Shown here in pieces: positions 2,288 to 64,000 of a DNA stretch of 64,000 bases. The notes below the pieces were generated by a model. The model saw nothing but the letters and a program-made list of their open reading frames with translations, was not told the DNA's origin and did no database searches. The DNA lies in the NCBI RefSeq assembly GCF_020103725.1, contig NZ_JAHXBG010000029.1, positions 62,001-126,000 of the forward strand. The letters run 5' to 3'. The first letter of the stretch is position 1. Every line of letters starts with the position of its first letter. This stretch comes from Hyalangium gracile (GTDB lineage Bacteria; Myxococcota; Myxococcia; Myxococcales; Myxococcaceae). The translations under genes were made by a program, and so were the position numbers.

Positions 2288-5200
2288 ATGGACGTCTACC
2301 GGCTCTCTCCCCAACAACAACGACTGTGGCGGCTCCAGCGCCGCGGTGAGCCTTTCCGTGTCGAGGCTCTGATGCGGATCGAAGGGGTGCTCCGCAGGAA
2401 GGACCTCGAGCGCTCCCTGGAGCGGCTGGTGGAAAGGCACGAGGTGCTCCGCACGACGTTCCCGGTCCTGCCGGGAAGCACGGAGCCGGTGCAGGCCATC
2501 GCTCCACGCGGCGAGGTGGAGTGGGACGTGGTGGATCTGCGCGCGCTCGGGCTGGAAGAACGGGAGCGCCAGGCGCGGGAGCGCTTCGAGCAGGCTTGCA
2601 CCCGGCCCTTCTCGCTCGACTCCGGCCCCGTGCTGCGCGCGCTGCTCGTCACCTTGGAGGAGCGGCAGCATCTGCTCGGGCTGATCCTCCCGGGGATGCG
2701 CGCGGACGCCGCCACCCTGCGCCTCCTCTGTCGGGAGCTTCAGCGTGACCATGCGACTCGCGCGGGAGAGTCTGGCCCCGACTCCGAGCCGCTGCCCTAC
2801 CTCTCCTTCTCCGAGTGGCAGAGCGAGCTGCTTGCTGAGCGAGCCGAGCCAACGAGCCCTGCCGCGGCGTGGTGGGAGCGGCACTCCCCCACGGCCGCGA
2901 GCGTGGCCCTGCCCCTCGAGCGCCGGACCAGCGGGGCGGCGCTCTCCCGCATCCCGCGGCACCATGCCCTCTCGCTACGAGGGGAAGCGCTGGGGGACGC
3001 TGCGCGCCGTGCCGGGTGCACGCTGGAAGGGTTCGTGCTCGCCGCGTGGGCGGCGTTGCTCGGCAAGCTCGCGGGTCAGAAGGAGCTCGTCCTCGGCCTG
3101 CGGAGCGACGGTCGCGAGCACCCGGAGCTGGCGGAGACGCTGGGGCCGGTGGCGCGTTGGCTGCCACTCCGCTGCAGCGTGGAGCCCGCCCAGCGCATGA
3201 GCGAGCTGGCCCGGCAGCTCCAGCAGGCCCGAAGCGAGCTGCTCGAGTGGCAGCGCTACTTCGTCTGGCCCGTTGAGGGTGACGAGCCCGTCGCGGGCCG
3301 TGACTATCCGGCCTTCGGCTTCGAGTGGCAGGACGAGAGCTCCGTCGAGCCCACCGCCTCGGAGCTTCGGGTCGAGCTCTGTCGGGCTTTCGTGGACCGC
3401 TCCAAGGTGACCCTCGCCTGCGTCCGCACCGGCTCCTCCCTGGGGCTCGGGCTTCAATACGACCCGAGCCTCTTCTCTGGACCGGACATCCTGCACCTGG
3501 CGAACCAGCTCGAGGCCCTGCTCGAGCATGCCGCCCGTGAGCCGGATGCCCCAGTGGGCACGCTGGAGACGCTGGGCGCCCGCGAGCGTGAGCGGCTCCT
3601 GCGGGACTTCAACGCGACGGACCAGAGCCTCCGGCCACGCTGCATCCACGAGTGGATCTCCGAGCTGGCGGCGCGCTACCCGACTCGCCCGGCGGTGGCC
3701 TTCGAGGACGCCTCCCTCACCTACGCGGAGCTCGAGGCCCGGGCCAATCAGCTCGCCCACGCCCTGCGGCGGCGCGGCGTCGGCCCCGAGAAGCGCGTGG
3801 GCCTGCTGCTCGACCGCTCGATCGAGATCGTGGTTGGGATGCTCGGCGTGATGAAGGCCGGGGCCGCCTATGTGCCGCTGGATCCCTCGCAGCCCCGCCA
3901 GCGGCTGATGTACCTGCTGGACGATCTCCAGGCGCCCGTCCTCCTCACCGAGCGCCGTCGGATCAAGGACGTGCCCGCCCGAGAGGGGTGCGAGGTGCTG
4001 TGCCTCGACGCCGGCGAGGCAGCGCTCGCCCAGGAGCCCACGCACGCACCGGAGAGCGGCGTGACTCCCGAACACCCCGCCTACGTCCTGTTCACCTCTG
4101 GCTCCACCGGGCGTCCCAAGGGCGTCATCGTGGAGCACCGCCAGCTCCACAACTACACCGCGAGCGTCCTGGAGCGGCTCGACCTTCCAGAGGGCGCCTC
4201 CTACGCCACCGTCTCCACCTTCGCGGCGGACCTGGGCAACACGGTCATCTTCCCGGCGCTCTGCACCGGCAGCTGCCTGCACGTCATCTCCTCCGAGCGG
4301 GCATCAGACCCGATCGCGCTCGCGGACTACATGCGGCGTCACCCGATCGACGTCCTCAAGATCGTCCCGAGCCACCTGAGGGCCCTGCTGAGCTCCGGAG
4401 ACACCCGGGCCCTGCTCCCTCGGCGACGACTGATCCTGGGCGGCGAGGCCAGCCCGCGGGCGTGGGTGGAGCAGCTCCAGGCCGCCGCCCCCGAGTGCCG
4501 CATCTACAACCACTACGGCCCCACCGAGACGACCGTCGGGGTGATGACGTTCGGCTTCGATCCCGCCCGGCCCTTCGCCGCGGAGACGGCCCTGCCCCTC
4601 GCGCGGCCCATCGCCAACACGCGGGTGTACATCCTGGACGCCCGGCTGCGACCGGTGCCGGTAGGCGTGGCCGGTGAGCTCTACATCGGAGGGGCGGCGC
4701 TCGCCCGAGGCTACCTGAACCGACCGGACCTGACGGCCCAGGCGTTCATCCCGGACCCATTCAGCCAGGAGCCGGGAGCTCGGCTGTACCGCACTGGCGA
4801 TCTGGGCCGCCACCTCTCCGATGGCACCCTCGAGCACCTGGGGCGTGCCGACAGTCAGGTGAAGTACCACGGCTACCGGGTGGAGCTCGCGGAGCTGCGT
4901 CACGCGCTCACCCAGCACCCGCAGGTCCGCGACGGCGTCGTGCTGCTGAAGAAGGACGCGAACGGGAACGAGGTGCTGGTCGCCTACTACGTCGCCCGCC
5001 AGGAGCTGGATCCCGAGCAGCTCCGCGCCTTCCTGGCGGAGCACTTGATCGACGAGGTGCTCCCGAACCTCTACATCCACCTGAAGAAGCTGCCCCTCAC
5101 CCTCAACGGGAAGATCCACTACGACGCGCTCCCGTCGATCGAGCAGGCGCGGCAGAAGCAGCGCCGGGCCCAGGTTCCCCCGCGCACGCCCGCCGAGGCC

Positions 5201-6817
5201 ACGCTGGCTCGCATCTGGTGCCAGGTGCTCAACGTCGAGGCGGTCGGCGTCCACGACAACTTCTTCGGGCTCGGCGGCGACTCCATCCTCTGCATCCAGG
5301 TCATCTCGAAGGCGAACCAGGCCGGGCTGCGGCTCAGCCCCCGACAGCTCTTCCAGCACCAGACGATCGCGGAGCTGGCCAGCGTGGCCTCCGAGGCTCC
5401 CGCGGCCCCCACGGCGGTGCAGGAGCCGCTCACCGGTCCCATTCCCCTGACGCCCATCCAGCGGTGGTTCTTCGAGCAGGACGCCTCCGATCCGGACGCC
5501 TGGTGCATCCTGGTGCCGCTCGAGGCGCGCCAGCCCATGGACGTCGCGCGGCTCGAGCAGGCCTTGACCGCCCTGCTCCACCGTCACGACGCGCTCCGGC
5601 TTCGAGTGGTCCGTGGCCCGTCCGGCTGGGAGGCCTCGATCGCCCCGCCCGAGGCGCCGATGCCGCTCGAGCGGGTGGACCTCTCGGCGGTCCCAGACGC
5701 CACGCGGGAGACGGAGGCCCAGCGAGTCGCTCAGAGACTCCAGCGCAGCCTTCACCTGAGCACCGGTCCCCTGGTCGCCGCCGCCTGGCTCGAGTTCGGC
5801 CCCCATCGCCCCGCCCGCCTGCTCATCGCCGCGCACCGGCTGGTGATCGATGGCGTGTCCTGGCGCATCCTGTTCGAGCACCTCCAGGCCGCCTATGAGC
5901 AGCTCGTGGAGCAGGGCCGCTGCGAGCTGCCCCCGCGCACCAGCTCGCTCAAGACGTGGGTCGAGCAGCTTCAGCGTCACGCGACCTCGCGAGCGAGAGA
6001 GGAGCTGCCGCACTGGAGCTCCACAGCCGCGCCGGCCGCCGGCCTCCCCGTGGATCGGAAGGAAGCCACCCTCCCTCTCACGCTCGAGCGCAGCCTCGCC
6101 TTCTCGCTGACGCCGGAGGAGAGCCGAGCGCTGCTCCATGACCTGCCAGAGCGGCACCGGTCCGAGATCGGCGAGCTGCTGATCGCCGCGCTCGCGAAGA
6201 CCTTGTGTGGCTGGTCCGGCCAGCCGCACCTGCAGCTCGACCTGGAGGGCCATGGCCGGGAGGATCTGTTCGATGGGGTGGACCTCTCCCAGACGGTGGG
6301 CTGGTTCGCCTCGCTGTACCCGGTCGTGCTCACCCCGGCGCCGAGCCCCGACATGGGAGCAACGGTCAAGGCGGTGAAGGAGCAGCTGCGCGCGGTGCCT
6401 CACCGGGGAATCGGCTACGGAGTGCTGCGCTACCTCGGCAACGAGCCCGAGGCGAAGGCGCTGGCGGCGCGTCCACGGTCCGAGGTGCTCTTCCGTTACG
6501 TCGGCCAGTACCACCTGGCCAGCCCGTGGCTCACCGTGCAGGATCCCGCCGAGCCCCAGGCCCCGACACGCCAGCACAAGCTGGCCGTCGTCGCGGGGAT
6601 GGCCGAGGGCCAGCTCCGGGTCACCTGGTTCTTCAGCGAGGCGATGTACCACCGGGCCACGATCGAGGCGCTCGCGAGCCGCCATGCCGAGGTCCTGCGT
6701 GCGCTGATCGCTGGAGACGAGGTCACCGCCCAGCCGGCCTACACCCCCTCCGACTTCCCACTGGCAGGCCTCGATCAGCAGAAGCTCGACAAGCTGCTTG
6801 CCCGCATCAAGAAGTAG
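2288..6817 (+). CDS. NRPS-1: degenerate C - A - T - degenerate E (1509 aa)
   Basis: Domains in order: a condensation-like domain (1-430), adenylation domain (about 450-930, A3 FTSGSTGRPKG near 600), carrier protein (LGGDSI near 995) and epimerisation-type domain (about 1040-1490; TVGWFASLYPV is an E-domain signature). Three active sites are abnormal. The HHxxxDG motif of the first domain reads PGMRADA (residues 135-141), with both histidines absent. The A4 core reads FAADLGNT, where most A domains have F-D and use that Asp to hold the alpha-amino group. The E-domain HHxxxDG reads HRLVIDG, with the catalytic second His replaced by Arg (CAC CGG near 5836). This suggests a loading module for a substrate without a normal alpha-amino group, in which epimerisation is not needed. 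The module starts the operon and is followed after 31 bp by a methyltransferase. Substrate not assigned. Confidence 0.93.
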   Translation: MDVYRLSPQQQRLWRLQRRGEPFRVEALMRIEGVLRRKDLERSLERLVERHEVLRTTFPVLPGSTEPVQAIAPRGEVEWDVVDLRALGLEERERQARERFEQACTRPFSLDSGPVLRALLVTLEERQHLLGLILPGMRADAATLRLLCRELQRDHATRAGESGPDSEPLPYLSFSEWQSELLAERAEPTSPAAAWWERHSPTAASVALPLERRTSGAALSRIPRHHALSLRGEALGDAARRAGCTLEGFVLAAWAALLGKLAGQKELVLGLRSDGREHPELAETLGPVARWLPLRCSVEPAQRMSELARQLQQARSELLEWQRYFVWPVEGDEPVAGRDYPAFGFEWQDESSVEPTASELRVELCRAFVDRSKVTLACVRTGSSLGLGLQYDPSLFSGPDILHLANQLEALLEHAAREPDAPVGTLETLGARERERLLRDFNATDQSLRPRCIHEWISELAARYPTRPAVAFEDASLTYAELEARANQLAHALRRRGVGPEKRVGLLLDRSIEIVVGMLGVMKAGAAYVPLDPSQPRQRLMYLLDDLQAPVLLTERRRIKDVPAREGCEVLCLDAGEAALAQEPTHAPESGVTPEHPAYVLFTSGSTGRPKGVIVEHRQLHNYTASVLERLDLPEGASYATVSTFAADLGNTVIFPALCTGSCLHVISSERASDPIALADYMRRHPIDVLKIVPSHLRALLSSGDTRALLPRRRLILGGEASPRAWVEQLQAAAPECRIYNHYGPTETTVGVMTFGFDPARPFAAETALPLARPIANTRVYILDARLRPVPVGVAGELYIGGAALARGYLNRPDLTAQAFIPDPFSQEPGARLYRTGDLGRHLSDGTLEHLGRADSQVKYHGYRVELAELRHALTQHPQVRDGVVLLKKDANGNEVLVAYYVARQELDPEQLRAFLAEHLIDEVLPNLYIHLKKLPLTLNGKIHYDALPSIEQARQKQRRAQVPPRTPAEATLARIWCQVLNVEAVGVHDNFFGLGGDSILCIQVISKANQAGLRLSPRQLFQHQTIAELASVASEAPAAPTAVQEPLTGPIPLTPIQRWFFEQDASDPDAWCILVPLEARQPMDVARLEQALTALLHRHDALRLRVVRGPSGWEASIAPPEAPMPLERVDLSAVPDATRETEAQRVAQRLQRSLHLSTGPLVAAAWLEFGPHRPARLLIAAHRLVIDGVSWRILFEHLQAAYEQLVEQGRCELPPRTSSLKTWVEQLQRHATSRAREELPHWSSTAAPAAGLPVDRKEATLPLTLERSLAFSLTPEESRALLHDLPERHRSEIGELLIAALAKTLCGWSGQPHLQLDLEGHGREDLFDGVDLSQTVGWFASLYPVVLTPAPSPDMGATVKAVKEQLRAVPHRGIGYGVLRYLGNEPEAKALAARPRSEVLFRYVGQYHLASPWLTVQDPAEPQAPTRQHKLAVVAGMAEGQLRVTWFFSEAMYHRATIEALASRHAEVLRALIAGDEVTAQPAYTPSDFPLAGLDQQKLDKLLARIKK

Positions 6818-6848: not shown

Positions 6849-7850
6849 ATGCCCTCCACACCGCTCAGCGCCGAGCTCTTCAACGGACACCTCGCCGCGG
6901 TCGCCATCTCGGCCCTGAACGAGCTGGGCTTCCTGGACGAGCTAGACCGCGCCGGGTCGCTGCACCTGCCTTCCTGGGTGGAGCGGAACAAGCTCCACGC
7001 GATGACGGTGGACAGCCTGATGGAGGTCATGGCCCTCTACGAGATCGTCACCCACTCCTCCGATGGGACGACCCGGCCCGGTAAGCACTTCGCGGACATC
7101 CTGAGAGCCAAGGGCTACTTCACCTGGCTCACCTCGGGCTACGGCCGACTCTTCCAGAAGCTGAGCAGCACCGTGCCGCTGGCGGGCCGGACGCCGGGCT
7201 TCATCGATCGGGACGGCCGGTCCATCGCCCTGGGCGGGAAGGACTACGGGCGGCAGTTCGTGGACGAGCAGTTCGACCATGTCCTCCGGATGCGGGACTT
7301 CAAGGTGGTGGCGGACCTGGGCTGCGGCAGCGCGGAGCGGCTCATCGGCATGGTGTCCCGCTACTCCGCCGAGGGCATCGGGGTGGACGTGAACGCCGGC
7401 GCGATCGAGCTGGCGGCCAAGGGCATCCAGGATGCGGGCCTCGAGCACCGGATCGGGCTCGTCCTGGGCGACCTGCGGACGCTGGAGCCCTCTCCGAGGC
7501 TGGACCGGGTGGATCTGCTCACCAGCTTCTTCAACGGGCACGACCTGTGGCCGCGAGAGGCCTGCCTGGCGGTGCTCGAGCGGCTCAAGCAGGTCTTCCG
7601 CAACGTCACCCGGTTCCTGCTGTGCGACACGTACCGCGCGGAGCCATTCACCTCCATCTCCGGAGTCCCCATCTTCACCCTTGGGTTCCATGTCACGCAC
7701 GCCGTGATGGGCCAGTACATCCCCACCCGAGAGGAGTGGCTGGAGCTGCTGAAGGAAGCGGGCTGGCAGTGCAACGGCATCCATGAGATCGGGATCCCGT
7801 ACAGCGCCATCTTCGATCTGTCTCCGGTGCGCACGAGCGGTGGGTCATGA
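6849..7850 (+). CDS. Class I SAM-dependent methyltransferase
   Basis: 333 aa. The start is the ATG at 6849, preceded by CAGGAG; an upstream in-frame start at 6798 would place an arginine/proline-rich stretch in front of the conserved fold. The N-terminal 130 residues look like the helical dimerisation region of small-molecule methyltransferases. Motif I is VVADLGCGS (about residue 157), followed by GIGVDVN and later FFNGHDLWPRE. A 4-nt ATGA overlap with NRPS-2 implies coupled translation, so the enzyme should serve this pathway. Alpha-keto-acid C-methyltransferases and O-methyltransferases share this layout. Given the odd amino-group pocket of NRPS-1, methylation of a keto or hydroxy acid starter is possible, but the acceptor atom cannot be read from sequence. 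Confidence 0.85.
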   Translation: MPSTPLSAELFNGHLAAVAISALNELGFLDELDRAGSLHLPSWVERNKLHAMTVDSLMEVMALYEIVTHSSDGTTRPGKHFADILRAKGYFTWLTSGYGRLFQKLSSTVPLAGRTPGFIDRDGRSIALGGKDYGRQFVDEQFDHVLRMRDFKVVADLGCGSAERLIGMVSRYSAEGIGVDVNAGAIELAAKGIQDAGLEHRIGLVLGDLRTLEPSPRLDRVDLLTSFFNGHDLWPREACLAVLERLKQVFRNVTRFLLCDTYRAEPFTSISGVPIFTLGFHVTHAVMGQYIPTREEWLELLKEAGWQCNGIHEIGIPYSAIFDLSPVRTSGGS

Positions 7851-10800
7851 CGGACGTCCTGCTGGACTTCGTGACGAAGCTGCGCCAGCTCGAGGTGAAG
7901 CTGTGGCTCGAGCAGGATCAGCTCCGCTGTAGCGCGCCCAAGGGGGTGCTCACCGGAGAGCTGCGCGCGTCGATCAGCGCTCGGAAGGCCGAGCTGATGG
8001 CCCTGCTCCGGGAGGCTCGGGCCTCCACTCGCGAGGCCACCTCCAGCATCCCCAAGGCGCCACGGCCCGCGGAGCTCCCGCTCTCCTTCGCGCAGCAGCG
8101 CCTCTGGTTCTTCGACCAGCTCGAGCCGGAGAGCCCCGTCTACAACATCGCCAGCGCCCTGCGGCTTCGGGGCGAGCTCGACGTCCGCGCGCTCGAGGCG
8201 GCCTGCACCGGGCTGGTCCATCGGCACGAGGTGCTTCGGACCACGTTTGGCAGCGTCGACGGACGGCCCTTCCAGGTCGTCCACCCGCCGGGTCCCCACC
8301 CGCTTCCCGTCATCTCCCTGGAGGAGCACCCGCCACAGGAGCGCGAGGCGGTGGCCCGCCGCATGGCGGAGGAGGAGGCGCGGCGTCCCTTCTCGCTGTC
8401 CCGGGGGCCGCTGCTCCGGACCTCCCTGCTGAGGCTGGCCCCGGATCACCACATCCTGCTGACGACGCTGCACCACATCGTCACGGATGCCTGGTCCGAC
8501 CAGGTGCTCAACCGCGAGCTCGTCACTCTCTACGCCGCGGCGCGAGCCGGCGTTCCCGCGAACCTGCCGGTGCTGCCCATCCAGTACGCGGACTTTGCCG
8601 TCTGGCAGCGACAGTGGCTCCAGGGTGAGGTGCTCGAGTCGCAGCTCGACTACTGGCGGAAGCAGCTCGCTGACAGCCCTACCGTCCTCGAGCTGCCCAC
8701 CGATCGCCCCCGCCCACCGGAGCAGACCTATCGCGGGGATCGGCACAGCTTCGTGCTCCCCGCGGCGCTCACCTCCGCGCTTCGCGCCCTCTCCCAGCGC
8801 CAGGACGCCACGCTGGCGATGACGCTGCTGGCGGGCTTCTCGGCGCTGCTCCAGCGCTACACCGGGCAGGAGGACTTCCTGGTCGGCTCACCCATCGCCG
8901 GCCGCCGCCATGTCGAGACCGAGGGCCTGCTCGGCTTCTTCGTGAACACGGTGGTGCTGCGCGCCCGCCCTTCGGCCCGCGGGACGTTCCAGCAGCTGCT
9001 GGCCGGGATTCGGGAGACCTCGCTGGGTGCGTACGCCCACCAGGACCTCCCGTACGAGACCCTGGTGGAGAAGCTCCAGCACACGCGCGACCTCAGCCGG
9101 GGCTCGCTCTTCCAGGTCATGTTCGGCATGGCCACCGGCAACGAGGGCGAAGTCACGCTGCCCGGCCTCACCATCGAGCCGCTGGACACCGTGAGCAAGG
9201 TCGCGCACTTCGACCTGATCATCGAGTTCGAGGAGCGCTCGGACGAGCTCATCTGCCGGCTGAAGTACAGCTCGGATCTCTTCGACGCGAGCACCATCGA
9301 GCGGATGGGGCGGCACCTGCGACGGCTGTTCGAGTCCGTCGCGGCGGCTCCGGACATCCGTCTGGCGGACATCCCGCTGCTCTCCCCCGAGGAGGAGCGG
9401 CAGGTGCTGGTGGACTGGAACGCGACCGAGGCCCACTACCCGGCCGACACGCCCATCCACGAGCTCATCGAGGCGCAGGCGGCCCGGACCCCCGAGGCCC
9501 CGGCGGTCATGGTGGCTCGCGCGGAAGGCCACGGCGCCAGCGACCTGCCGCCGCTCACCTACCGCGAGCTCGATGCTCGCTCGAACCAGCTCGCCCGGCA
9601 CCTCCGGGCGCTGGGCGTCGGCCCGGAGGTCCGGGTGGCGATCTGCTTCCGGCGCTCGCCCGAGGCGCTGGTGGCCATCCTCGCCGTGCTCAAGGCCGGC
9701 GGCGTCTACGTCCCGCTCGATCCGCAGTACCCGAGGCAGCGGCTCGCGTTCGTCATCCAGGACACGCAGCCGCTCGTGCTGCTCACCCAGCGCGAGCTGC
9801 TCGACGAGCTCCCTCCTCCCGGAGAGGCCCGGGTGGTGTGCCTGGACCAGGAGTGGGAGCACATCTCCCGGGAGAGCACTTCCCGCCTGGAGCGCAACGT
9901 CTCCCCGGACAACCTCGTCTACGTCATCTACACGTCCGGCTCGACGGGGCAGCCCAAGGGCGTGATGATCTCCCACCGGGGCCTGCAGATCTCCAACACG
10001 GCGCGGCTCCACTACTACCGCGCGACCGCTCGGCGCTACCTCCTGCTGTCGTCGTTCGCCTTCGACAGCTCGGTGGCCGGCATCTTCTGGACGCTGTGCC
10101 AGGGCGGACTGCTCGTGCTGCCCGAGCAGGATCTCCAGCAGGACACGGTCGAGCTGGTGCGGTGCATCGACCGGCTGCGCGTCACGCACCTGCTGTGCGT
10201 GCCGACCTTCTACCAGCAGCTGGTCGAGGCTGCTCCGCACGGGAAGATGCGCTCGCTGGAGGTGGCGATCGTCGCGGGAGAGACGACTCCCCACGAGCTG
10301 ATCAACACGCACCTGGAGCGATTCCCCCAGGCGGGCCTCTTCACGGAGTACGGCGCGACCGAGTCCTCTGTCTACACCACCATCTACCGCTATGAGCCGG
10401 GCGGGCTCCGTGGGCGCGTGCCCGTGGGCCGGCCGGTGGAGAACAACGAGATCTACGTCCTGGATGCCGGGATGCGCCCGGTGCCCATCGGGGTGAAGGG
10501 CGAGATCTACCTGGGCGGACCCGGCGTCGCGCGCGGGTACTACCGGCGCCCCGAGCTGACGGCGAAGAGCTTCGTGCCCCACCCGTTCAGCCGGGAGCCA
10601 GGGGCGCGGCTCTACAAGACCGGAGACATGGGCCGCCTGCGCGCGGACGGCGTGCTCGAGTTCCTCGGCCGCATCGATCAGCAGGTGAAGGTCCGTGGGT
10701 ATCGCATCGAGCTCGAGGAGATCGAGGCGGCACTCGCGCAGCACCCCAGCGTCCAGGCCACGGCGGTCTCGGTCCGCGAGGACATCCCAGGCAACCCACG

Positions 10801-13800
10801 CCTGGTGGCGTACGTCGTCCCTCGGTCCGACGAGCCGGCCCCTGCCCGGGAAGGCTCGCCCATCGACGAGGCGCAGCTGGACCGCGTCTCCCAGTTCCAG
10901 GCGATGTACGACCAGCTCTACGGGCACACCGAGGGGTTCTCGAGCGAGGATCCATCGATCAACCACCGGATCTGGATCGACACCTACGATCACAAGCCCA
11001 TCCCGCTGGATGTCATCCACGAGGTCGTGGACGACACGGTCCAACGCATCCTCGCGCTGAAGCCACGGCGGGTGCTGGAGATCGGAGTGGGCACGGGGCT
11101 GCTGCTCCTGCGCATTGCCTCCAAGACGGAGCGCTACCTGGGCGTGGACTTCTCGGAGACGGCGCTCGACCGGCTGCGCTCGCTGCTGGCGAAGCGTCCG
11201 CCCCTTCCCGGGGTCTCGCTGATGCAGGGCGCGGCCCACGAGGTGGACCGGATCCGCGAGGAGCCGTTCGACATCGTCGTCATCAATGAGGTCAGCCAGC
11301 ACTTCCCCTCCCTGGACTACTGCGTCGCGCTCCTGGAGAAGCTGGTGCCGCTCGTTCGCCCGGGCGGTCGGATCTTCATCGGCGGCGTGCGCCCACTGCC
11401 CCTGCTGGAGATGTTCCATGCGACGGTGCAGCTCCACCGCGCCAGCGACGAGGTACGTCGCGAGGAGCTCCAGCGCATCGCGCATGCCTATCTGGCGGGC
11501 GACAAGGACCTGTGCATCGACCCGGAGTTCTTCCGGGCCGTGCGCGCGCACATCCCCGCGCTGAGCCAGGTGTGGATGCAGCTGAAGGGCGGGCGCCACC
11601 GCAATGAGCTGACCCGCTTCAAGTACGACGTCTTCTTCGAGGTCCAGGGCCCGCGCCAGGCTCCGCTCGAGGTGGAGTGGCTCGACTGGCGGGCTCGGCG
11701 GCTCACGCTCGCGGACGTCCGCGCGATGCTCGCCCAGGAGACGCCGGAGACGCTGGCGCTGGCCAACGTGCCCAACGCCCGTCTGTCCCAGGAGGGACAG
11801 GCCATGACGCTGCTCGCGTCTCCCAGGGGACCTTCCACGGTCGGAGAGCTGCGGCGGGCACTGGCGGCGCTCCCTCCTTCGCCGGCGGAGGATCCGGAGG
11901 ACTTCCGGGAGGTCGCCGAGAAGCTGGGCTACGACGTGGTCATCGACTGGGCGGGTGATGGCCGGGATGGCGCGTTCAATGCCGTCTTCCATCGCCGCCC
12001 GCGCCGGCACTTCGAGGTGGTTCGCCCGGTGGCTGCTGGAGGCCCCGCCCCCCGCCAGGCCTGGAGCGCGTATGGGAACGATCCGCTCCGGGAACAGTCC
12101 CGGCGCGCGCTCGTCCCCACGCTGCGGGACTTCCTCCAGAAGCAGCTGCCGGCCTACATGGTCCCGTCAGCGTTCGTCGTGCTGGATGCCCTGCCGCTCA
12201 ACCCCAATGGCAAGGTGGACCGCAAGGCGCTCCCGTCGCCGGAGTCGACCCGACAGGGACCGGACGACGGCTTCGTCCCCGCGCGCAACCCGGTGGAGGA
12301 GCGCCTGGCCGCCATCTGGGCCCAGGTGCTGCGGCTGGAGCGCGTGGGCATCCACGACAACTTCTTCGATCTGGGCGGTGACTCGATCCTGAGCGTGCAG
12401 ATCGTCGCTCGGGCGACCCAGGCCGGGCTGCGGCTCGCCGCGCGGCAGATGTTCGCGCACCAGACCATCGCCGAGCTGGCGGCGGTGGTGGGCTCGGCTC
12501 CGTCCGCCGCCGCGGAGCCCGAGCTCGTGACGGGGGAAGTGCCGCTGACTCCCGTGCAGCACTGGTACCTGTCCCAGGACCCGGTAGCGCCCCACCACTT
12601 CAACCAGGCGGTGATGCTCGTCGCTCGCGAGCCGCTGAACCTCGAGAAGCTCGAGCAGTCCGTGCGCCACATCCTGCGGCACCACGACGCGCTGCGGATG
12701 CGCTTCGAGCGGACCGGCACCGGCTGGTCGCAGCGCTGCATGCCTCCCGATGAGCGCGTGGTGCTCGAGAGCTTCGACCTGAGCGGCCTGCCCTCGGAGC
12801 AGCGACGCGCCGCGATCGAGGCCACCGCCGCCCGTCTCCAGGAGGGCCTGAGCCTCGAGCAGGGGCCCTTGCTGCGCGTCGCCCGCTTCGTGCCCGGTCC
12901 CGGCGAGCCGGAGCGACTCCTGCTGATCGCCCACCACCTGGTGGTGGATGGAATCTCCTGGCGCATCCTCCTGGAGGATCTCCAGACGGCGTACCAGCAG
13001 CTGCGGGAGGGGCGAGCACCGCACCTTCCCGACAAGACCACCTCCTATCAGCGCTGGGCGCGACGGCTCGTCCAGTACGCGCGCACCCCCTCGCACGCTC
13101 TGGACTTCTGGCGGCAGCTACCGACCTCGGGCACGGCCCGGCTGCCTGTGGACGGCTCCGACCCCAGCCCATCCGCCCGAGCGGTGGGCGCCGCCCGGAC
13201 GCACACGTGCGCGCTCGGCGCGGAGGAGACTCGCGCGCTCCGGCAAGAGGTGCTCAAGGCATTCCACTGCGAGATCAACGACGTCCTGCTGACCGCGCTG
13301 GCGTCCGCGCTCACCGCGTGGACCGGGGAACGCCGCTGGCTCATCGACCTCGAGGGGCACGGTCGCGAGCCGCTCTTCGAGGACGTCGAGCTGTCGCGGA
13401 CGGTGGGCTGGTTCACCTCGCTGTTCCCCGTGGTGCTCACGCACGAAGGGGACGACCTGCTCGACACGCTCCAGGCCGTGAGGTCCCGCCTGCGGAGCCT
13501 GCCGAACCGGGGCATCGACTACGGCATCCTGCGCTACCTGCGCGGGCCCGGAGAGGAGCAGGTCCCCGCGCTCCAGCCGGAGCTCGTCTTCAACTACCTG
13601 GGGCAGTTCGACCAGGTCTTCGACAGCAACGCGCTCTTCCGGCCGGCCGATGAGTCCGTGGGGCCGACCATCAGCCCGCTCTCCCACCGCCCGCACCTGC
13701 TCGAGGTCAACAGCCTGGAGCATGAGGCACGGCTGCGGGTGAACTGGACGTACAGCCCGGAGCTCCACCGCCCGGAGACCATCGAGCGGCTCGCCGAGCA

Positions 13801-15232
13801 TTTCCTCGAGGCGCTGCGGCGGCTCGTCGCGCTCGCTCGGGCGGGCGGAACCCGACGTCCCACCCCCGCCGACTTCCCGCTCGCCCGCGTCGATCGCGCG
13901 GAGCTGGAACGGCTCCTGGCGAACCGTGGTCCCGTGGAGGACCTGTACCCGCTGGCGCTCTCGCAGCAGGAGATGTTCGACGAGACGCGGGCGCGTCCCG
14001 GGACGTGGGCCTACTTCATCCAGATCTCCGGGCGCATCTCGGGCGCCTTCTCTCCAGAGGCCTTCGAGCAGGCCTGCCAGCGGGTCATCGAGCGCAATCC
14101 GGTGCTGCGCACCGCGGTGGTGTTCGAGGGAGTCCGTGAGCCGCACCAGGTGGTCCAGCGCGAGGCCCGACTGGCCGCCGAGCGAATCGACGCGACGGGC
14201 TTCTCACCGGAGCAACGAGACGCGGAGCTGCGACAGCGGCTCGAGCACGGCCAACGTCGCTTCGAGCTGGAACGGGCTCCCCTCATGCGCCTGGAGCTCG
14301 TCCAGGTCGCGCCGGAGCGCTTCCACCTCATCTGGAGCACCCACCACGGGATGCTGGACGGATGGTGCATGTCCCTCCTGCTCCACGAGGTCTTCACCCT
14401 GTACAAGTCCCTCGCGCGTGGGACGGCGGTGGAGCTGCCCCCCCGCCCACCGTTCCGTGAGCTGCTCCACTGGCTGGCACGCCAGGACCGCTCCAGGGCG
14501 GAGGCCTGGTGGCGGCGTGAGCTCTCGGGCCTCGCCCTCCCAGCCCACGTGGAGCCGACGGGAGAGCGCCCCGAGTGGCAGTGGGCCGAGCAGCGTGCCC
14601 GTCTGTCGCGGGAGACCACCGAGGCCCTCTCGGGGATGGCACGACGCCACCGGCTCACGCTGAACACCCTGGTCCAGGGCGCCTGGGCCCTGACGCTCGC
14701 GCGCGGCCAGAGCCGCCAGGAGGTCTGCTTCGGAGCGACCTCGGTGGTGCGTCCCGCGGAAGTGCCAGGGGTGGAGGAGATCATCGGGCCCTTGCTCAAC
14801 ACGCTCCCCCTGCGCGCACGGCTGGAGCCCCAGGCGCCGGCCACCGACTGGCTCAGGGCACTGCAGGCGCGCCAGCAGGAGCAGCGCCCGTTCGAGCACG
14901 TTGCCCTCTCCACCCTGCGCCGCTGGATCGGCGCGCCGGAGGGGGCGCCCCTGTTCGACAGCATCGTCCGCTTCCAGAACTACCCGACGCAGTTCGCCCT
15001 CGAGCAGCTCGAGCTCGGGTTCAAGTTCGACCGGATGAGGGTGGTCGATCGCTGGCCCTACCCGCTCGCGCTGGTCGTGGTCCCGGGCGAGCGGCTGGGG
15101 ATCGAGCTGAGCCACCGGCTCGATCGCGTCGGCCCCGAGCAGGCCCGGCTCCTGCTGGAGCAGTTCCGGCGGCTCCTCACGAAGCTGGCGGAAGCGCCGG
15201 AGCAGCGGCTCGCCGCGCTGATGGAGGTATAG
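7847..15232 (+). CDS. NRPS-2: TubC dock - C - A(nMT) - T - E - C (2461 aa)
   Basis: Residues 1-60 are a TubC-type N-terminal docking domain (KLWLEQDQLRCSAPKG). Then come a condensation domain (HHIVTDA near 210; the terminal Gly is Ala), an adenylation domain (A3 YTSGSTGQPKG near 695; A4 SFAFDSSV with the usual Asp) and an N-methyltransferase inserted after A8 (VLEIGVGTG near 1077). A10 NPNGKVDRKALP, a carrier protein (LGGDSI near 1508) and an intact epimerisation domain (HHLVVDG near 1695, TVGWFTSLFPV) follow. A final condensation domain (HHGMLDG near 2165) ends the protein with no carrier or thioesterase after it. By eye the selectivity residues read about D-S-A-L-I-A-E-V-Y, which I cannot match to a substrate. 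It should add an N-methylated D-residue. The terminal C domain either passes the chain to another protein or releases it onto a free amine. Confidence 0.95.
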   Translation: MTDVLLDFVTKLRQLEVKLWLEQDQLRCSAPKGVLTGELRASISARKAELMALLREARASTREATSSIPKAPRPAELPLSFAQQRLWFFDQLEPESPVYNIASALRLRGELDVRALEAACTGLVHRHEVLRTTFGSVDGRPFQVVHPPGPHPLPVISLEEHPPQEREAVARRMAEEEARRPFSLSRGPLLRTSLLRLAPDHHILLTTLHHIVTDAWSDQVLNRELVTLYAAARAGVPANLPVLPIQYADFAVWQRQWLQGEVLESQLDYWRKQLADSPTVLELPTDRPRPPEQTYRGDRHSFVLPAALTSALRALSQRQDATLAMTLLAGFSALLQRYTGQEDFLVGSPIAGRRHVETEGLLGFFVNTVVLRARPSARGTFQQLLAGIRETSLGAYAHQDLPYETLVEKLQHTRDLSRGSLFQVMFGMATGNEGEVTLPGLTIEPLDTVSKVAHFDLIIEFEERSDELICRLKYSSDLFDASTIERMGRHLRRLFESVAAAPDIRLADIPLLSPEEERQVLVDWNATEAHYPADTPIHELIEAQAARTPEAPAVMVARAEGHGASDLPPLTYRELDARSNQLARHLRALGVGPEVRVAICFRRSPEALVAILAVLKAGGVYVPLDPQYPRQRLAFVIQDTQPLVLLTQRELLDELPPPGEARVVCLDQEWEHISRESTSRLERNVSPDNLVYVIYTSGSTGQPKGVMISHRGLQISNTARLHYYRATARRYLLLSSFAFDSSVAGIFWTLCQGGLLVLPEQDLQQDTVELVRCIDRLRVTHLLCVPTFYQQLVEAAPHGKMRSLEVAIVAGETTPHELINTHLERFPQAGLFTEYGATESSVYTTIYRYEPGGLRGRVPVGRPVENNEIYVLDAGMRPVPIGVKGEIYLGGPGVARGYYRRPELTAKSFVPHPFSREPGARLYKTGDMGRLRADGVLEFLGRIDQQVKVRGYRIELEEIEAALAQHPSVQATAVSVREDIPGNPRLVAYVVPRSDEPAPAREGSPIDEAQLDRVSQFQAMYDQLYGHTEGFSSEDPSINHRIWIDTYDHKPIPLDVIHEVVDDTVQRILALKPRRVLEIGVGTGLLLLRIASKTERYLGVDFSETALDRLRSLLAKRPPLPGVSLMQGAAHEVDRIREEPFDIVVINEVSQHFPSLDYCVALLEKLVPLVRPGGRIFIGGVRPLPLLEMFHATVQLHRASDEVRREELQRIAHAYLAGDKDLCIDPEFFRAVRAHIPALSQVWMQLKGGRHRNELTRFKYDVFFEVQGPRQAPLEVEWLDWRARRLTLADVRAMLAQETPETLALANVPNARLSQEGQAMTLLASPRGPSTVGELRRALAALPPSPAEDPEDFREVAEKLGYDVVIDWAGDGRDGAFNAVFHRRPRRHFEVVRPVAAGGPAPRQAWSAYGNDPLREQSRRALVPTLRDFLQKQLPAYMVPSAFVVLDALPLNPNGKVDRKALPSPESTRQGPDDGFVPARNPVEERLAAIWAQVLRLERVGIHDNFFDLGGDSILSVQIVARATQAGLRLAARQMFAHQTIAELAAVVGSAPSAAAEPELVTGEVPLTPVQHWYLSQDPVAPHHFNQAVMLVAREPLNLEKLEQSVRHILRHHDALRMRFERTGTGWSQRCMPPDERVVLESFDLSGLPSEQRRAAIEATAARLQEGLSLEQGPLLRVARFVPGPGEPERLLLIAHHLVVDGISWRILLEDLQTAYQQLREGRAPHLPDKTTSYQRWARRLVQYARTPSHALDFWRQLPTSGTARLPVDGSDPSPSARAVGAARTHTCALGAEETRALRQEVLKAFHCEINDVLLTALASALTAWTGERRWLIDLEGHGREPLFEDVELSRTVGWFTSLFPVVLTHEGDDLLDTLQAVRSRLRSLPNRGIDYGILRYLRGPGEEQVPALQPELVFNYLGQFDQVFDSNALFRPADESVGPTISPLSHRPHLLEVNSLEHEARLRVNWTYSPELHRPETIERLAEHFLEALRRLVALARAGGTRRPTPADFPLARVDRAELERLLANRGPVEDLYPLALSQQEMFDETRARPGTWAYFIQISGRISGAFSPEAFEQACQRVIERNPVLRTAVVFEGVREPHQVVQREARLAAERIDATGFSPEQRDAELRQRLEHGQRRFELERAPLMRLELVQVAPERFHLIWSTHHGMLDGWCMSLLLHEVFTLYKSLARGTAVELPPRPPFRELLHWLARQDRSRAEAWWRRELSGLALPAHVEPTGERPEWQWAEQRARLSRETTEALSGMARRHRLTLNTLVQGAWALTLARGQSRQEVCFGATSVVRPAEVPGVEEIIGPLLNTLPLRARLEPQAPATDWLRALQARQQEQRPFEHVALSTLRRWIGAPEGAPLFDSIVRFQNYPTQFALEQLELGFKFDRMRVVDRWPYPLALVVVPGERLGIELSHRLDRVGPEQARLLLEQFRRLLTKLAEAPEQRLAALMEV

Positions 15233-15251: not shown

Positions 15252-17804
15252 ATGCTCCACACAGCCACGGTGACACTGGCCGTTACCCTCGCCCTGCTCT
15301 CGCCGCGCATCGCCGGCGCGAGCGAGGGCGACGGGGCGCTCCAGGCAGGCCGGGCCACGGAGCGGATCGACATCAACGGGGTGTGGGACGAGCCCGCGTG
15401 GGCCAGTGCCCTCCCCTTCGACGGCTTCGTCCAGATCTTCCCCTCCGAGGGTGGAGCGCCCACCGAACGGACGGAGGTGCGCGTCCTGTACGACGATCGC
15501 AACCTCTATGTGGCGTTCACCTGCTTCGACTCGCAGCCCGACCAGCTCAACCGGAACCTCGGGCGGCGGGACAGCCCGCCCCCGTCGGACAGCGTCGAGG
15601 TGGTCATCGACTCGGCGGCCGATCGCCGTACCGCCTACACCTTCGGAGTGAACGCGGGCGGAGTGCTCTTCGACTCGCTGGTGCAGGACAACGGCACCAC
15701 GTCCACCGAGTGGGACGCGGTCTGGGATGCCGCGGTCCAGGTACGCCCCGACGGCTGGTCCGCGGAGCTTCGCATCCCGCTGCACATCCTCCGCTTCTCC
15801 AAGGCCACTCTTCAGAAGTGGGGCTTCCTCGCCCGGCGGCGCCTGGCGCGCACCAACGAGGTCATCACCTCCGCCCTGGTGCCCCGGACTGGCAGCGGTC
15901 AGGTCTCCCGCATCGGCACGCTCGAAGGCCTGAGGGACCTCACCCCACGGCCATACGTGGAGCTCAGCCCGTACCTGGCCGCCCGCACCGCGCTCCAGCC
16001 GCAGTTCTCCGACCCGAGCCGGCCCGATCCGCGCCTGCTCAACCCCGCGCTCGACGTCGGGCTGGACCTGCAGATGGCGCTCTCCAGCGAGCTGGTGCTG
16101 ACCGCCACGGTCCACCCCGACTTCGGCCAGGTCGAGGCGGACGAGCTGATCCTCACCCTGGCCAACGCCGAGCCCTACTTCCCGGAGAAGCGTCCCTTCT
16201 TCGCCCAGGGGCTGGAGCTCTTCCAGCCGCCGCCCAGCGGCAACGGCGCCATCCTGGCGCAGCAGTTCTTCTACTCACGCCGCATCGGCCTGACGACGCC
16301 CATCCTGGGAGCAGCCAAGGTGGCCTGGTCGGTGACGCCGGAGCTCGACGTGGCGTTGCTGGACGCCTACGTCCTCGGCGCGCAGGCGCCGGAGTTCGAT
16401 GAAGCCACGCCGGACCGTCGCTTCCGGCTGGGACTGCTCCACTTCGGCCCCGCGAACGCGCTGCCGCGGACGCCTCAGATTCCCCAGAACTTCCTGGTGG
16501 CGGTCTCTCGCTGGCGGCCTCGGGAGGACGTGACGCTCGGAGGCCGGGTGGCCATGGCCACGCCCTTCGCCGGCGCGTGCAGCGAGGAAGACGCCGCGCT
16601 CTCCGAGGAGGAACAGCCGCTCGGCTGCCTGGCGCAGGGGGGCAACACGGGAGCCATCGAGTGGGAGCTGCGGAGCCCCGACTCCGACTGGGGACTGTCC
16701 GGCCAGCTCCTGGGCTCGCAGACGGTGGGCGGGCCTCCCCTGCGGCTCCTGGCCGACGGCACCGCCCTGTCTCGCGGCGCCACCGGCCTTGGCGCCTACG
16801 TCACGGCGGGCAAGTTCGGCGGAGAGCCTTTCCGGTTCGACGTCACCTACCGCTACAACGCCCCCACCCTCGAGCTCAACGCCATCGGCTACCTGCCCTA
16901 CCAGAACGAGCACGTGGGAGCCGTGCACCTGCGCTACACGCGACCGAGCGGCTTCGGCCTGCTCCACGCCTTCGACCTCTACTCGGTGGCCTACGGGACG
17001 TGGACCGCGGACGGCCAGGGCATCGACCGGAATCGCCGACTGGCCGTGGGGAGCGCGGCGGTCATCCCAGGCTTCCACGAGCTCACACTGGAGCTGGGCA
17101 CCCTCGACCCGCGCTTCGACACGCGGGAGATCCCCGGCACGGGCATCGCGTACCAGCGCGTGGGCTTCCACTACCTCAACCTGCTCCTCCAGACGAACCC
17201 GCACCGGCCCCTGTCCTTCTTCATGGACGGAGTGCTCAAGTACGCCCCCAACGCCGCGTCGCCGAGCGGGGAGCAGGGCTGGGTGGCGGACGCGGGGCTC
17301 ACCTACCGCCCCAACAGCCGCTTCGAGTCGAAGCTCTCGGTCAGCGCGGAGCTGACGCCCAACGAGCCGCGCTGGGTGGACCAGGTGGAGGACGAGCTCA
17401 TCTTCGGCGCGCTCACGGCTCGGAGCCTGTCGCTGATCCTCCGGCTGCAGTGGGTGCTCACGCCTCGGCTGACGCTGCAGACCTACGCGCAGCACTTCAG
17501 CGAGCTGGGCCGGTACGACCGCTTCTTCCGAGGAACCCCGGGCGCAGGCTCGCACATCCGGCTGTCGGAGCTCACCCCAGTGGACTACGGGGGCTCGGTG
17601 GACTTCCACGGCTCCGCGCTGAACCTGAACCTGGTGCTGCGCTGGGAGTACCGGCTCGGGTCGCTCCTCTACTTCGTCTACACCCGCTCGCAGGAGCAGG
17701 CACCTGGGGGGGCCCTCCCCCGGACGGTGCTCCCTTCGGGCCTGCCGAGCGGCCCGACGTCCGATGCCGTGATGGTGAAGTGGTCCTACTTCTGGAGCAG
17801 CTGA
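15252..17804 (+). CDS. DUF5916 family outer-membrane-type protein with CBM9-like N-terminus
   Basis: 850 aa, starting 19 bp after NRPS-2 and therefore probably co-transcribed. An N-terminal signal peptide (LAVTLALLSPRIAGA) is followed by a carbohydrate-binding family 9-like beta-sandwich (about 30-210; IDINGVWDEPAW, VLYDDRNLYVAF). A long beta-rich C-terminal part has YFPEKRPFF and alternating aromatic strands, as in DUF5916 proteins that are predicted to form outer-membrane barrels. Proteins of this family are often found near secretion or TonB-type genes; their biochemical role is not established. Its place inside the NRPS operon suggests surface retention or export of the product, but it could be a bystander. 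Confidence 0.8.
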   Translation: MLHTATVTLAVTLALLSPRIAGASEGDGALQAGRATERIDINGVWDEPAWASALPFDGFVQIFPSEGGAPTERTEVRVLYDDRNLYVAFTCFDSQPDQLNRNLGRRDSPPPSDSVEVVIDSAADRRTAYTFGVNAGGVLFDSLVQDNGTTSTEWDAVWDAAVQVRPDGWSAELRIPLHILRFSKATLQKWGFLARRRLARTNEVITSALVPRTGSGQVSRIGTLEGLRDLTPRPYVELSPYLAARTALQPQFSDPSRPDPRLLNPALDVGLDLQMALSSELVLTATVHPDFGQVEADELILTLANAEPYFPEKRPFFAQGLELFQPPPSGNGAILAQQFFYSRRIGLTTPILGAAKVAWSVTPELDVALLDAYVLGAQAPEFDEATPDRRFRLGLLHFGPANALPRTPQIPQNFLVAVSRWRPREDVTLGGRVAMATPFAGACSEEDAALSEEEQPLGCLAQGGNTGAIEWELRSPDSDWGLSGQLLGSQTVGGPPLRLLADGTALSRGATGLGAYVTAGKFGGEPFRFDVTYRYNAPTLELNAIGYLPYQNEHVGAVHLRYTRPSGFGLLHAFDLYSVAYGTWTADGQGIDRNRRLAVGSAAVIPGFHELTLELGTLDPRFDTREIPGTGIAYQRVGFHYLNLLLQTNPHRPLSFFMDGVLKYAPNAASPSGEQGWVADAGLTYRPNSRFESKLSVSAELTPNEPRWVDQVEDELIFGALTARSLSLILRLQWVLTPRLTLQTYAQHFSELGRYDRFFRGTPGAGSHIRLSELTPVDYGGSVDFHGSALNLNLVLRWEYRLGSLLYFVYTRSQEQAPGGALPRTVLPSGLPSGPTSDAVMVKWSYFWSS

Positions 17805-62678: not shown

Positions 62679-63454
62679 CGCCCGAGTGCGAGCGCGTGAT
62701 GGATTCCCTGGGACAGCCCCTGCCGCCGGAGCTGGCCGCGCATGCCGCCTCGTGCGAGGACTGCCGCGCCCTCACCTCCGGCTTCGGGGCGCTCGAGGCG
62801 CTGCCGCCCGTGGCCCCCCCCAAGTCCACACCGGGCCTGGAGGCCGCGCGCGCGCGGACGCTGGAGGAGCTGGCCACCCAGCCCGTGGCAAAGCCGTGGT
62901 GGCGCGAGCTGCTGGCGCTGCTGGTGGCCTACCTCGTGGTGATGGTGGGAGGCCTGTTCACCCTGGGCCGCTCGGGCCTGGTGGCCAACACGGCCTCTCC
63001 GGCCGTCATCGCCGTGCTGGCGCTCCTCATCCTCGCGCTGGTGGGCGGCGGCGCGTACATCTCCCTGGCTCCGGCGCGGCGCGGCTTGCCCTGGGCGTGG
63101 GTGGCCGGGGGCGCGGCGATGGTGTCGCTCCTCCTGGTGGTGGGCGGCTCGGGCATCGCCTCGGCGCGCGGCTTCCTCGCGGGGGTGATGGGGTGCCTCA
63201 CCACCGAGGTGGTGCTGTCCATTCCGCCGCTGGCGCTGGCGCTCGTGCTGCTGTGCCGCTCCGCCTTCCAGCCCGTGCGCGCCATCGCCGCGGGGCTGTC
63301 CGCGGGCGGCGTGAGCCTCTTCGTCCTGCACCTGCACTGCGCGGATGGGACGACCGGGCACCTGATGCTGGGCCACCTGGTGCCGTGGCTCCTGCTGGCC
63401 GGGGTGGCGCTCTTCCTGCGCGCGCGCCTGCCCACGCGCAGCTACGCCCCGTGA
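62675..63454 (+). CDS. Membrane anti-sigma factor with zinc-finger N-terminus
   Basis: 259 aa from the ATG at 62675, in ATGA overlap with the sigma gene. The N-terminus has a ZAS-like H-x3-C-x2-C (AAHAASCEDCRAL, about residues 24-32), which in this family clamps the sigma factor. Six hydrophobic segments follow (LALLVAYLVVMVGGLF to HLVPWLLLAGVALFL), a layout like the DUF1109/NrsF group of anti-sigma factors. It should hold its sigma partner at the inner membrane until a signal releases it; the signal is unknown. Confidence 0.85.
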   Translation: MTPECERVMDSLGQPLPPELAAHAASCEDCRALTSGFGALEALPPVAPPKSTPGLEAARARTLEELATQPVAKPWWRELLALLVAYLVVMVGGLFTLGRSGLVANTASPAVIAVLALLILALVGGGAYISLAPARRGLPWAWVAGGAAMVSLLLVVGGSGIASARGFLAGVMGCLTTEVVLSIPPLALALVLLCRSAFQPVRAIAAGLSAGGVSLFVLHLHCADGTTGHLMLGHLVPWLLLAGVALFLRARLPTRSYAP

Positions 63455-63486
63455 GCGGCGGCGGAGCTGGCCTCGCGGTGAAAAAT

Positions 63487-63525
63487 GCGAGGCGCGTCCA
63501 GGGGGCAATGCCAGACGCGCCTCGC
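63487..63525 (-). terminator. Intrinsic terminator of the peroxiredoxin gene
   Basis: Twelve-base-pair stem GCGAGGCGCGTC / GACGCGCCTCGC with a 15-base loop; on the minus strand it is followed by ATTTTTCAC (plus-strand A-run 63481-63485). It lies 24 bp after the peroxiredoxin stop and supports that gene being intact and expressed. Confidence 0.85.
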
Positions 63526-63548
63526 GGTGATGCGGAACGACGTGCGGC

Positions 63549-63986
63549 TCAGATTTCCCCGAGAGCCTGCTGAGGGAACGCTCGCGCGTCCACTTTCGGG
63601 TAGTACGCCTTCACCTTCCCGTCCGGCCCGATGATGACGCCCACCCGACGAGCATTGGGTGCCTTCGCGTCGTCACATGCGCCGTAGGCCAGCCCGACCT
63701 TCCGGTCGGTGTCGCACAGCAGCGGGAAGTTGAACCCGAACTTCTCGGAGAAGGCCTTGTTCTCCTCGGGGGTGTCGAAGCTGATGCCCAGAATCTCCGC
63801 GTTCTTCTGCTGGTACTGCGCTCTCTGGTCGCGGAACCCGCAACCCTCGGCCGTTCAACCCGGTGTGTCCGCCTTCGGGTAGAACCAGAGCACCACCGTC
63901 CTTCCACGGTACTCGGACAGCGAGTGCGTCCTGCCGGTGTGGTCCCGGACCGTGAAGTCCGGAGCCACGTCTCCTGGCTTGAGCAT
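63549..63986 (-). CDS. bcp: Bcp/PrxQ-type peroxiredoxin with in-frame TGA at the peroxidatic position; probable selenoprotein
   Basis: From the ATG at 63986 (ribosome site GGAGG) to the TGA at 63551-63549 there are 146 codons with a single in-frame TGA at codon 44 (63857-63855). Before it: MLKPGDVAPDFTV, VVLWFYPKADTPG. After it: TAEGCGFRDQRAQYQQ, GISFDTPEENKAF, FPLLCDTDRKVGLAYG, RVGVIIGPDGKVKAYYP. In Bcp/PrxQ proteins the residue after DTPG is the peroxidatic cysteine and the resolving one lies five further, here Cys49. TGA at exactly that position, intact coding on both sides, a SECIS-like hairpin (63827-63845), good ribosome site and terminator all point to selenocysteine at residue 44. It would reduce hydroperoxides in the cytoplasm. 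The alternative is a TGC-to-TGA nonsense mutation or sequencing error. Confidence 0.85.
63827..63845 (-). promoter_or_regulatory. Candidate bacterial SECIS hairpin for the selenocysteine codon
   Basis: Nine bases after the TGA (minus strand) lies GGTTGCGG-GTT-CCGCGACC, an 8-bp stem with one G-U pair and a GUU apical loop. The loop lies 17-19 nt after the TGA, within the distance range of bacterial SECIS elements, which act inside the coding region and have a G in a small apical loop for SelB. The fit is by eye; no folding was run. Confidence 0.6.
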
Positions 63987-64000
63987 GGCGCAGCCTCCTC

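Follow-up and report, generated by a model that had tools for sequence, protein, structure and literature searches.

Selenocysteine (Sec)-containing peroxiredoxins of COG1225 with a TxxU motif were reported in 2005 for 43 Sargasso Sea sequences (PMC1088965, Table 1). A 2006 study gives 12 Sec-peroxiredoxins; its Table 3 has three for Anaeromyxobacter dehalogenans, a myxobacterium, and its Table 1 counts five Cys-to-Sec events and no Sec-to-Cys event for peroxiredoxin (PMC1794560). A passage of PMC5029168 puts the number at 91 Sec-Prx in 78 organisms, and the selenoprotein table of a 2026 review includes Prx (PF00578, TxxU; PMC13188914). PrxU of Eubacterium acidaminophilum goes back to Sohling 2001, as cited in PMC8533274. 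The main text of PMC12013277 has no mention of peroxiredoxin, Prx or Myxococc. Literature searches on myxobacteria with selenoprotein and selenocysteine and on 1-Cys bacterial selenoproteins found nothing, and the matches to Myxococcota selenoproteins were off topic by title and abstract. We take COG1225 to be the Bcp group. The gene described here is of an already known kind, because Sec-COG1225 peroxiredoxins (2005) and the tabulated myxobacterial ones (2006) are on record. The three A. dehalogenans entries in PMC1794560 also make the novelty in this lineage weaker than the initial annotation had claimed. Less expected are the approximately 13 switches between Sec and Cys in the subfamily, some of them within one genus, and the absence of the usual resolving cysteine from many Sec forms, described below.

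The gene, called bcp below, was found in a 64,000-nt stretch of Hyalangium gracile DNA, the whole of which is referred to as the window. Translation of the minus strand from 63986 to 63549 reads MLKPGDVAPDF...WFYPKADTPG-U-TAEGCGFRD...GEI (145 residues), and the plus strand of 63549-63986 has no comparable reading frame. The coordinates and the 145-codon frame with a lone internal TGA at codon 44 agree with the initial annotation, in which the strand was unstated. The features of the locus are as follows.

63549..63986, minus strand: Bcp/PrxQ peroxiredoxin gene, predicted to contain Sec (145 codons plus TGA stop, translated with TGA as U)
63855..63857, minus strand: TGA codon 44 at the peroxidatic position, context DTPG-U-T, the sole internal TGA
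63827..63845, minus strand: SECIS-like hairpin with an 8-bp stem and a GUU loop, starting 9 nt past the TGA (fold and covariation)
63840..63842, minus strand: Cys49 codon, inside the hairpin (translation and alignment of relatives)
63714..63716, minus strand: Cys91 (LLCD), second candidate resolving residue by comparison with relatives
63549..63551, minus strand: terminal stop codon, also TGA (translation)
63994..64000, minus strand: Shine-Dalgarno-like GAGGAGG, 7 nt 5' of the ATG (by eye)
63481..63525, minus strand: intrinsic terminator 3' of bcp with a GC-rich stem (fold and sequence)

Three elements predicted earlier from the letters were all located: a Cys at position 49, a ribosome site (GAGGAGG, 7 nt before the ATG) and a terminator. 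Cys49 is presumably the canonical resolving cysteine of Bcp. The terminator has 12 Watson-Crick pairs (13 in the fold, including one G-U), a 15-nt loop region and T5, and its folded stem scores z = -6.29. A consensus promoter/terminator scan around bcp listed nothing; the terminator escapes it because the scan accepts loops of 3-8 only. By eye, bcp stands alone, with flanking frames on the opposite strand on both sides. The frame just past the window edge lies on the other strand, runs away from bcp and, from a motif judged by eye, looks ClC chloride channel-like. A plus-strand ORF ending at 63454 points toward bcp from the other side and has no Pfam match at 1e-10.

The bcp product matches Pfam AhpC-TSA (PF00578) at 1e-35. 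Eight solved sequences were matched at 1e-15, five of which are labelled bacterioferritin comigratory protein, and the bcp TGA aligns with the Cys of the solved-structure relatives. An AlphaFold model of the Cys44 version, built on a 42-row alignment (the window protein and 41 of the best 80 of 221 relatives), has a mean pLDDT of 97.3. Its best structure match is M. tuberculosis BcpB (5epf, TM 0.91). Five of the top six matches are labelled Bcp and one alkyl hydroperoxide reductase; the 1-Cys AhpE is at rank 7. The PxxxTxxC motif is present with Sec for Cys (PKADTPG-U), a cysteine (C49) stands at the resolving position five residues past the peroxidatic one, and P37, T41 and R114 are invariant in the 42 rows. 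R114 would be the catalytic Arg. By sequence matches and predicted fold, 63549-63986 is assigned to a Bcp/PrxQ-type peroxiredoxin. Twelve NCBIfam families matched the product and none was over its cut-off, with NF006960 at 103.3 bits (cut-off 140) and NF053650 at 107.9 bits (cut-off 260); these two equivalog models may cover narrower groups. Since no NCBIfam model reaches its cut-off, automatic naming would be poorly supplied even with the frame called. In line with the claim that standard gene calling misses the gene, a mechanical ORF list has zero ORFs of at least 80 aa in the bcp frame.

Relatives were sought in a scan of named genomes with peptide patterns that exclude codon 44. The scan confirmed 221 relatives, and the analysis went on with the best 80 of them. 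Codon 44 in these best 80, which come from several phyla, is TGA in 54, TGC in 23 and TGT in 3, that is, in-frame UGA in 54 and Cys homologues at the same position in 26, with no TAA, TAG or other codon. A second set of 29 loci came from a search of 59 genomes; one of these is bcp itself, and several encode proteins identical to first-set rows. Over all 109 loci the count is TGA 63, TGC 41, TGT 5 and nothing else. A close relative, from Hyalangium versicolor, is 93% identical and has TGC at codon 44.

Folding recovered the 8-bp stem-loop that had been described 9 nt after the TGA, with the sequence GGUUGCGG-GUU-CCGCGACC. The 26-nt segment beginning with this hairpin gives z = -4.45, and 0 of 200 shuffles are as good. 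Longer segments are less striking: z = -1.90 at 40 nt (11/200 shuffles as good) and z = -0.88 at 52 nt (31/200). For this reason the hairpin of bcp taken by itself has moderate weight, and it is the comparison of relatives that matters. Searching 63500-64000 against Rfam at E values up to 10 gave two matches, both below the gathering score and neither of them a SECIS; Rfam includes bacterial SECIS families, but no family of any sort rose above chance for the hairpin.

For the comparison of TGA forms we used 60 sequences, 54 of them distinct: the window's gene and 59 loci with an identity of 50% or more, after removal of three TGA rows that were more distant. Among the 54 distinct rows, 93.8% of the stem cells are paired. 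Both-side changes number 13, compared with 2.7 for shuffled rows; none of the 500 shuffles is as high, a figure that is not a probability because the rows are related. Pairing falls to 34-53% when the partner strand is slid. The clearest compensation is at columns 17/27, which are G-C (or G-U) in the Cys49 and Arg49 forms and C-G in nine rows, eight with Ser49 and one with Thr49; on the partner side the change is silent (Arg CGC to CGG). In 8 of the 60 rows the best hairpin is elsewhere or shifted (e.g., loci L085, L106 and L107). The Cys set had 32 sequences, 26 of them distinct, with 14 more distant rows dropped. Its stem is 71.6% paired with 0 both-side changes, and shuffles do as well. Slid versions are 38-46% paired, less than the unslid 71.6%, which shared codons would explain. 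Three positions, all silent, separate the Hyalangium versicolor Cys form from the bcp hairpin. With kinship ignored, best-hairpin energy differs between TGA (63) and Cys (46) forms at p = 1.3e-10, and, where identity is 60% or more, between 26 TGA and 22 Cys rows at p = 1.2e-7. It was concluded that the hairpin is conserved with compensatory changes in the TGA forms and not in the Cys forms.

The source genome (11.7 Mb in 81 contigs; tool figures of 100% completeness and 3.25% contamination) was searched for selA, selB, selD and tRNA-Sec (selC), as had been suggested, and all four are present. The tRNA-Sec scores 71.6 bits (gathering 47) and ARAGORN calls SeC with anticodon TCA. SelB scores 284.9 bits, or 308.2 with a neighbouring stretch (cut-off 242.25), selA 577.1 bits and selD 376.9 bits. 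The selD gene (G000:C7:46357) has itself one in-frame TGA (SHCAG-U-AAKL) and probably encodes a Sec-containing selenophosphate synthetase. Two of the 18 AhpC-TSA matches in this genome contain a TGA. The second (locus L125; C29:141074-141436, minus strand) lies approximately 15 kb from bcp, outside the window. Its one in-frame TGA at 141316 is at the peroxidatic position (FTPG-U-TRELSAYRD), and a hairpin with an 8-bp stem and a GGAC loop follows 15 nt past the TGA. It has Ser, not Cys, five residues past the Sec, and its N-terminus is signal-like by eye. L125 is probably a second selenoprotein of the source genome. Among the 59 genomes searched, tRNA-Sec is over the cut-off in 43, so the machinery alone is no predictor of the TGA form. 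Nine of the 59 have a TGA match (G000, which is the source genome, G002, G029, G035, G042, G046, G050, G057 and G058); eight of the nine have tRNA-Sec and all nine have selA over the cut-off. In G050, a draft of 130 contigs and 97% completeness with a TGA form and selA, tRNA-Sec was not found over the cut-off or by a laxer search.

The bcp product is therefore predicted, with near certainty, to be a selenoprotein with Sec at the peroxidatic residue 44. We regard it as very improbable that the TGA is read through without Sec by a near-cognate tRNA, or that translation terminates at codon 44 to leave a short peptide: Cys forms do occur at the same position, but Cys codons are the sole alternative among the 109 loci, the genome encodes the Sec machinery, and the hairpin directly past the TGA is conserved. 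For the part of bcp past the TGA, dN is 0.033-0.132 and dS 0.35-0.98 against the TGA relatives L017, L018 and L020, which gives dN/dS of approximately 0.10-0.21 (the figures for L101 are those of L017); this region is thus constrained as protein under purifying selection. A nonsense change in a dead gene, or a miscalled TGC/TGT in an ordinary one, is the least probable reading and was rejected, since the same TGA recurs in 54 of the best 80 of 221 relatives, with conserved codons past it and a hairpin that accompanies it, even though TGA and TGC are one base apart and the 93% identical H. versicolor gene has TGC.

From the gene, codon, hairpin, machinery genes and conservation described above, we infer how a Sec-containing bcp product would be decoded and would act. 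SelA and SelD would make Sec-tRNA, and SelB with Sec-tRNA(Sec) would bind the hairpin that closely follows the UGA, so that Sec is inserted. The selenol of residue 44 would reduce a hydroperoxide and become a selenenic acid. This would be resolved to a selenenylsulfide, probably by Cys49 and possibly by Cys91, and thioredoxin or a similar reductant would reopen it. On this reading bcp is an antioxidant selenoprotein gene identified in a myxobacterium, of a type that ordinary gene finding can overlook.

Within the window's genus, the source genome and G002 have TGA, and G001, G003, G004 and G006 have TGC; G005 has no bcp match at 1e-30. The H. versicolor locus (L016) lies in genome G059, whose tRNA-Sec agrees with that of G006 in contig number, place and score, in keeping with a Hyalangium origin of the window. 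The Sec and Cys versions in the genus are 91-93% identical to the bcp product. G001, G003 and G006 have tRNA-Sec yet use Cys, so Sec is not indispensable. In G004 (two contigs, 100% complete) no selA and no tRNA-Sec reaches the cut-off, and this member of the genus has probably given up the use of selenocysteine. With its TGC form, G004 is a natural control that favors the Sec reading of the TGA.

Mapping Sec and Cys onto the protein tree takes 13 changes, at least eight of them forced by well-supported branches; when positions 44 and 49 are masked it takes 14. This tree was built quickly from few columns and leaves 38 of its 102 inner branches unresolved. A two-state model on this tree, rooted with 16 more distant rows and ignoring the hairpin, reconstructs the ancestral residue as Sec for the myxobacterial cluster (P 0.91-0.99) and as Cys for Corallococcus and Citreicoccus (P(Sec) 0.01), which together imply a Sec-to-Cys change. 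For the clade that includes the window's genus, the same model reconstructs an ancestral Cys (P(Sec) 0.03), so that the TGA there would mean a regain. We prefer repeated Sec loss to regain because the TGA forms inside and outside the genus have the same hairpin. A weakly supported DNA tree without the hairpin region shows three Sec/Cys changes, one of them forced by starred branches. We tentatively propose, at somewhat less than even confidence, that this Bcp subfamily frequently exchanges Sec for Cys and Cys for Sec, with repeated Sec-to-Cys loss among myxobacteria and Sec gain removing the need for the canonical resolving Cys. A series of such closely related Sec and Cys enzymes, with that of G004 among them, is a good natural system for studying why selenium is kept or given up.

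The window's bcp keeps Cys49. Among the best 80 of 221 relatives, Cys49 is absent in 25 of the 54 TGA forms (12 Arg, 9 Ser, 2 Asn, 1 Lys and 1 Thr) and in 0 of the 26 Cys forms; it is absent in 0 of the 46 Cys rows over the 109 loci. Raw counts, with kinship ignored, give a Fisher p of 5.4e-6 for Sec against Cys49 loss. Loss of Cys49 takes six changes on the protein tree. Among eight independent pairs on well-supported branches, a comparison of low power, Cys49 differs in two to three, each time in the expected direction (sign test p 0.25-0.5), so the association loses its significance when kinship is taken into account. Sec forms without Cys49 occur in several clades among loci L050-L095 and L108, and in some of them the SECIS stem has changed to match. 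It is conceivable, but somewhat doubtful, that Cys49 was replaced by Ser or Arg in many Sec forms while the overlapping SECIS stem was kept paired, and that these proteins would act as 1-Sec peroxidases or use Cys91. If so, selenium may free a peroxiredoxin from its resolving cysteine, and the Sec/Cys series is suited to asking this.

Cys91 is found in 44 of the 54 TGA forms and 22 of the 26 Cys forms in the best 80 of 221 relatives. A role for Cys91 as a stand-in for lost Cys49 found no clear support: it is present in 22 of 25 TGA forms without Cys49 and in 22 of 29 with it, and the independent-pairs test of Cys91 against Cys49 loss gave no result.

Elsewhere in the window, 2288-6817 encodes a non-ribosomal peptide synthetase module by Pfam matches, with two condensation stretches, an AMP-binding domain and a carrier domain. 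It is followed by an ORF of 2461 aa (7847-15232), and the two probably belong to a natural-product cluster. An 850-aa ORF with a DUF5916 match (15252-17804) is also found downstream of the synthetase gene.

The Cys-type Bcp/PrxQ proteins (M. tuberculosis BcpB 5epf, S. solfataricus Bcp1 3drn and X. campestris PrxQ) are alike in fold to the bcp product (TM by query length 0.87-0.91) and have the active-site motif in common with it. They differ in having Cys where the bcp product would have Sec, and the identity is 27-33%. PrxU has Sec at the peroxidatic position. PrxU of Eubacterium acidaminophilum (NCBIfam NF040737, peroxi_PrxU) belongs like the bcp product to the peroxiredoxin family, but the bcp product scores 50.5 bits against this model (cut-off 270) and represents a different, shorter subfamily. 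The Sec-peroxiredoxins tabulated in PMC1088965 and PMC1794560 come from other organisms and are likened to the bcp product by description; they have Sec at the peroxidatic position within a TxxU motif, as predicted for bcp.
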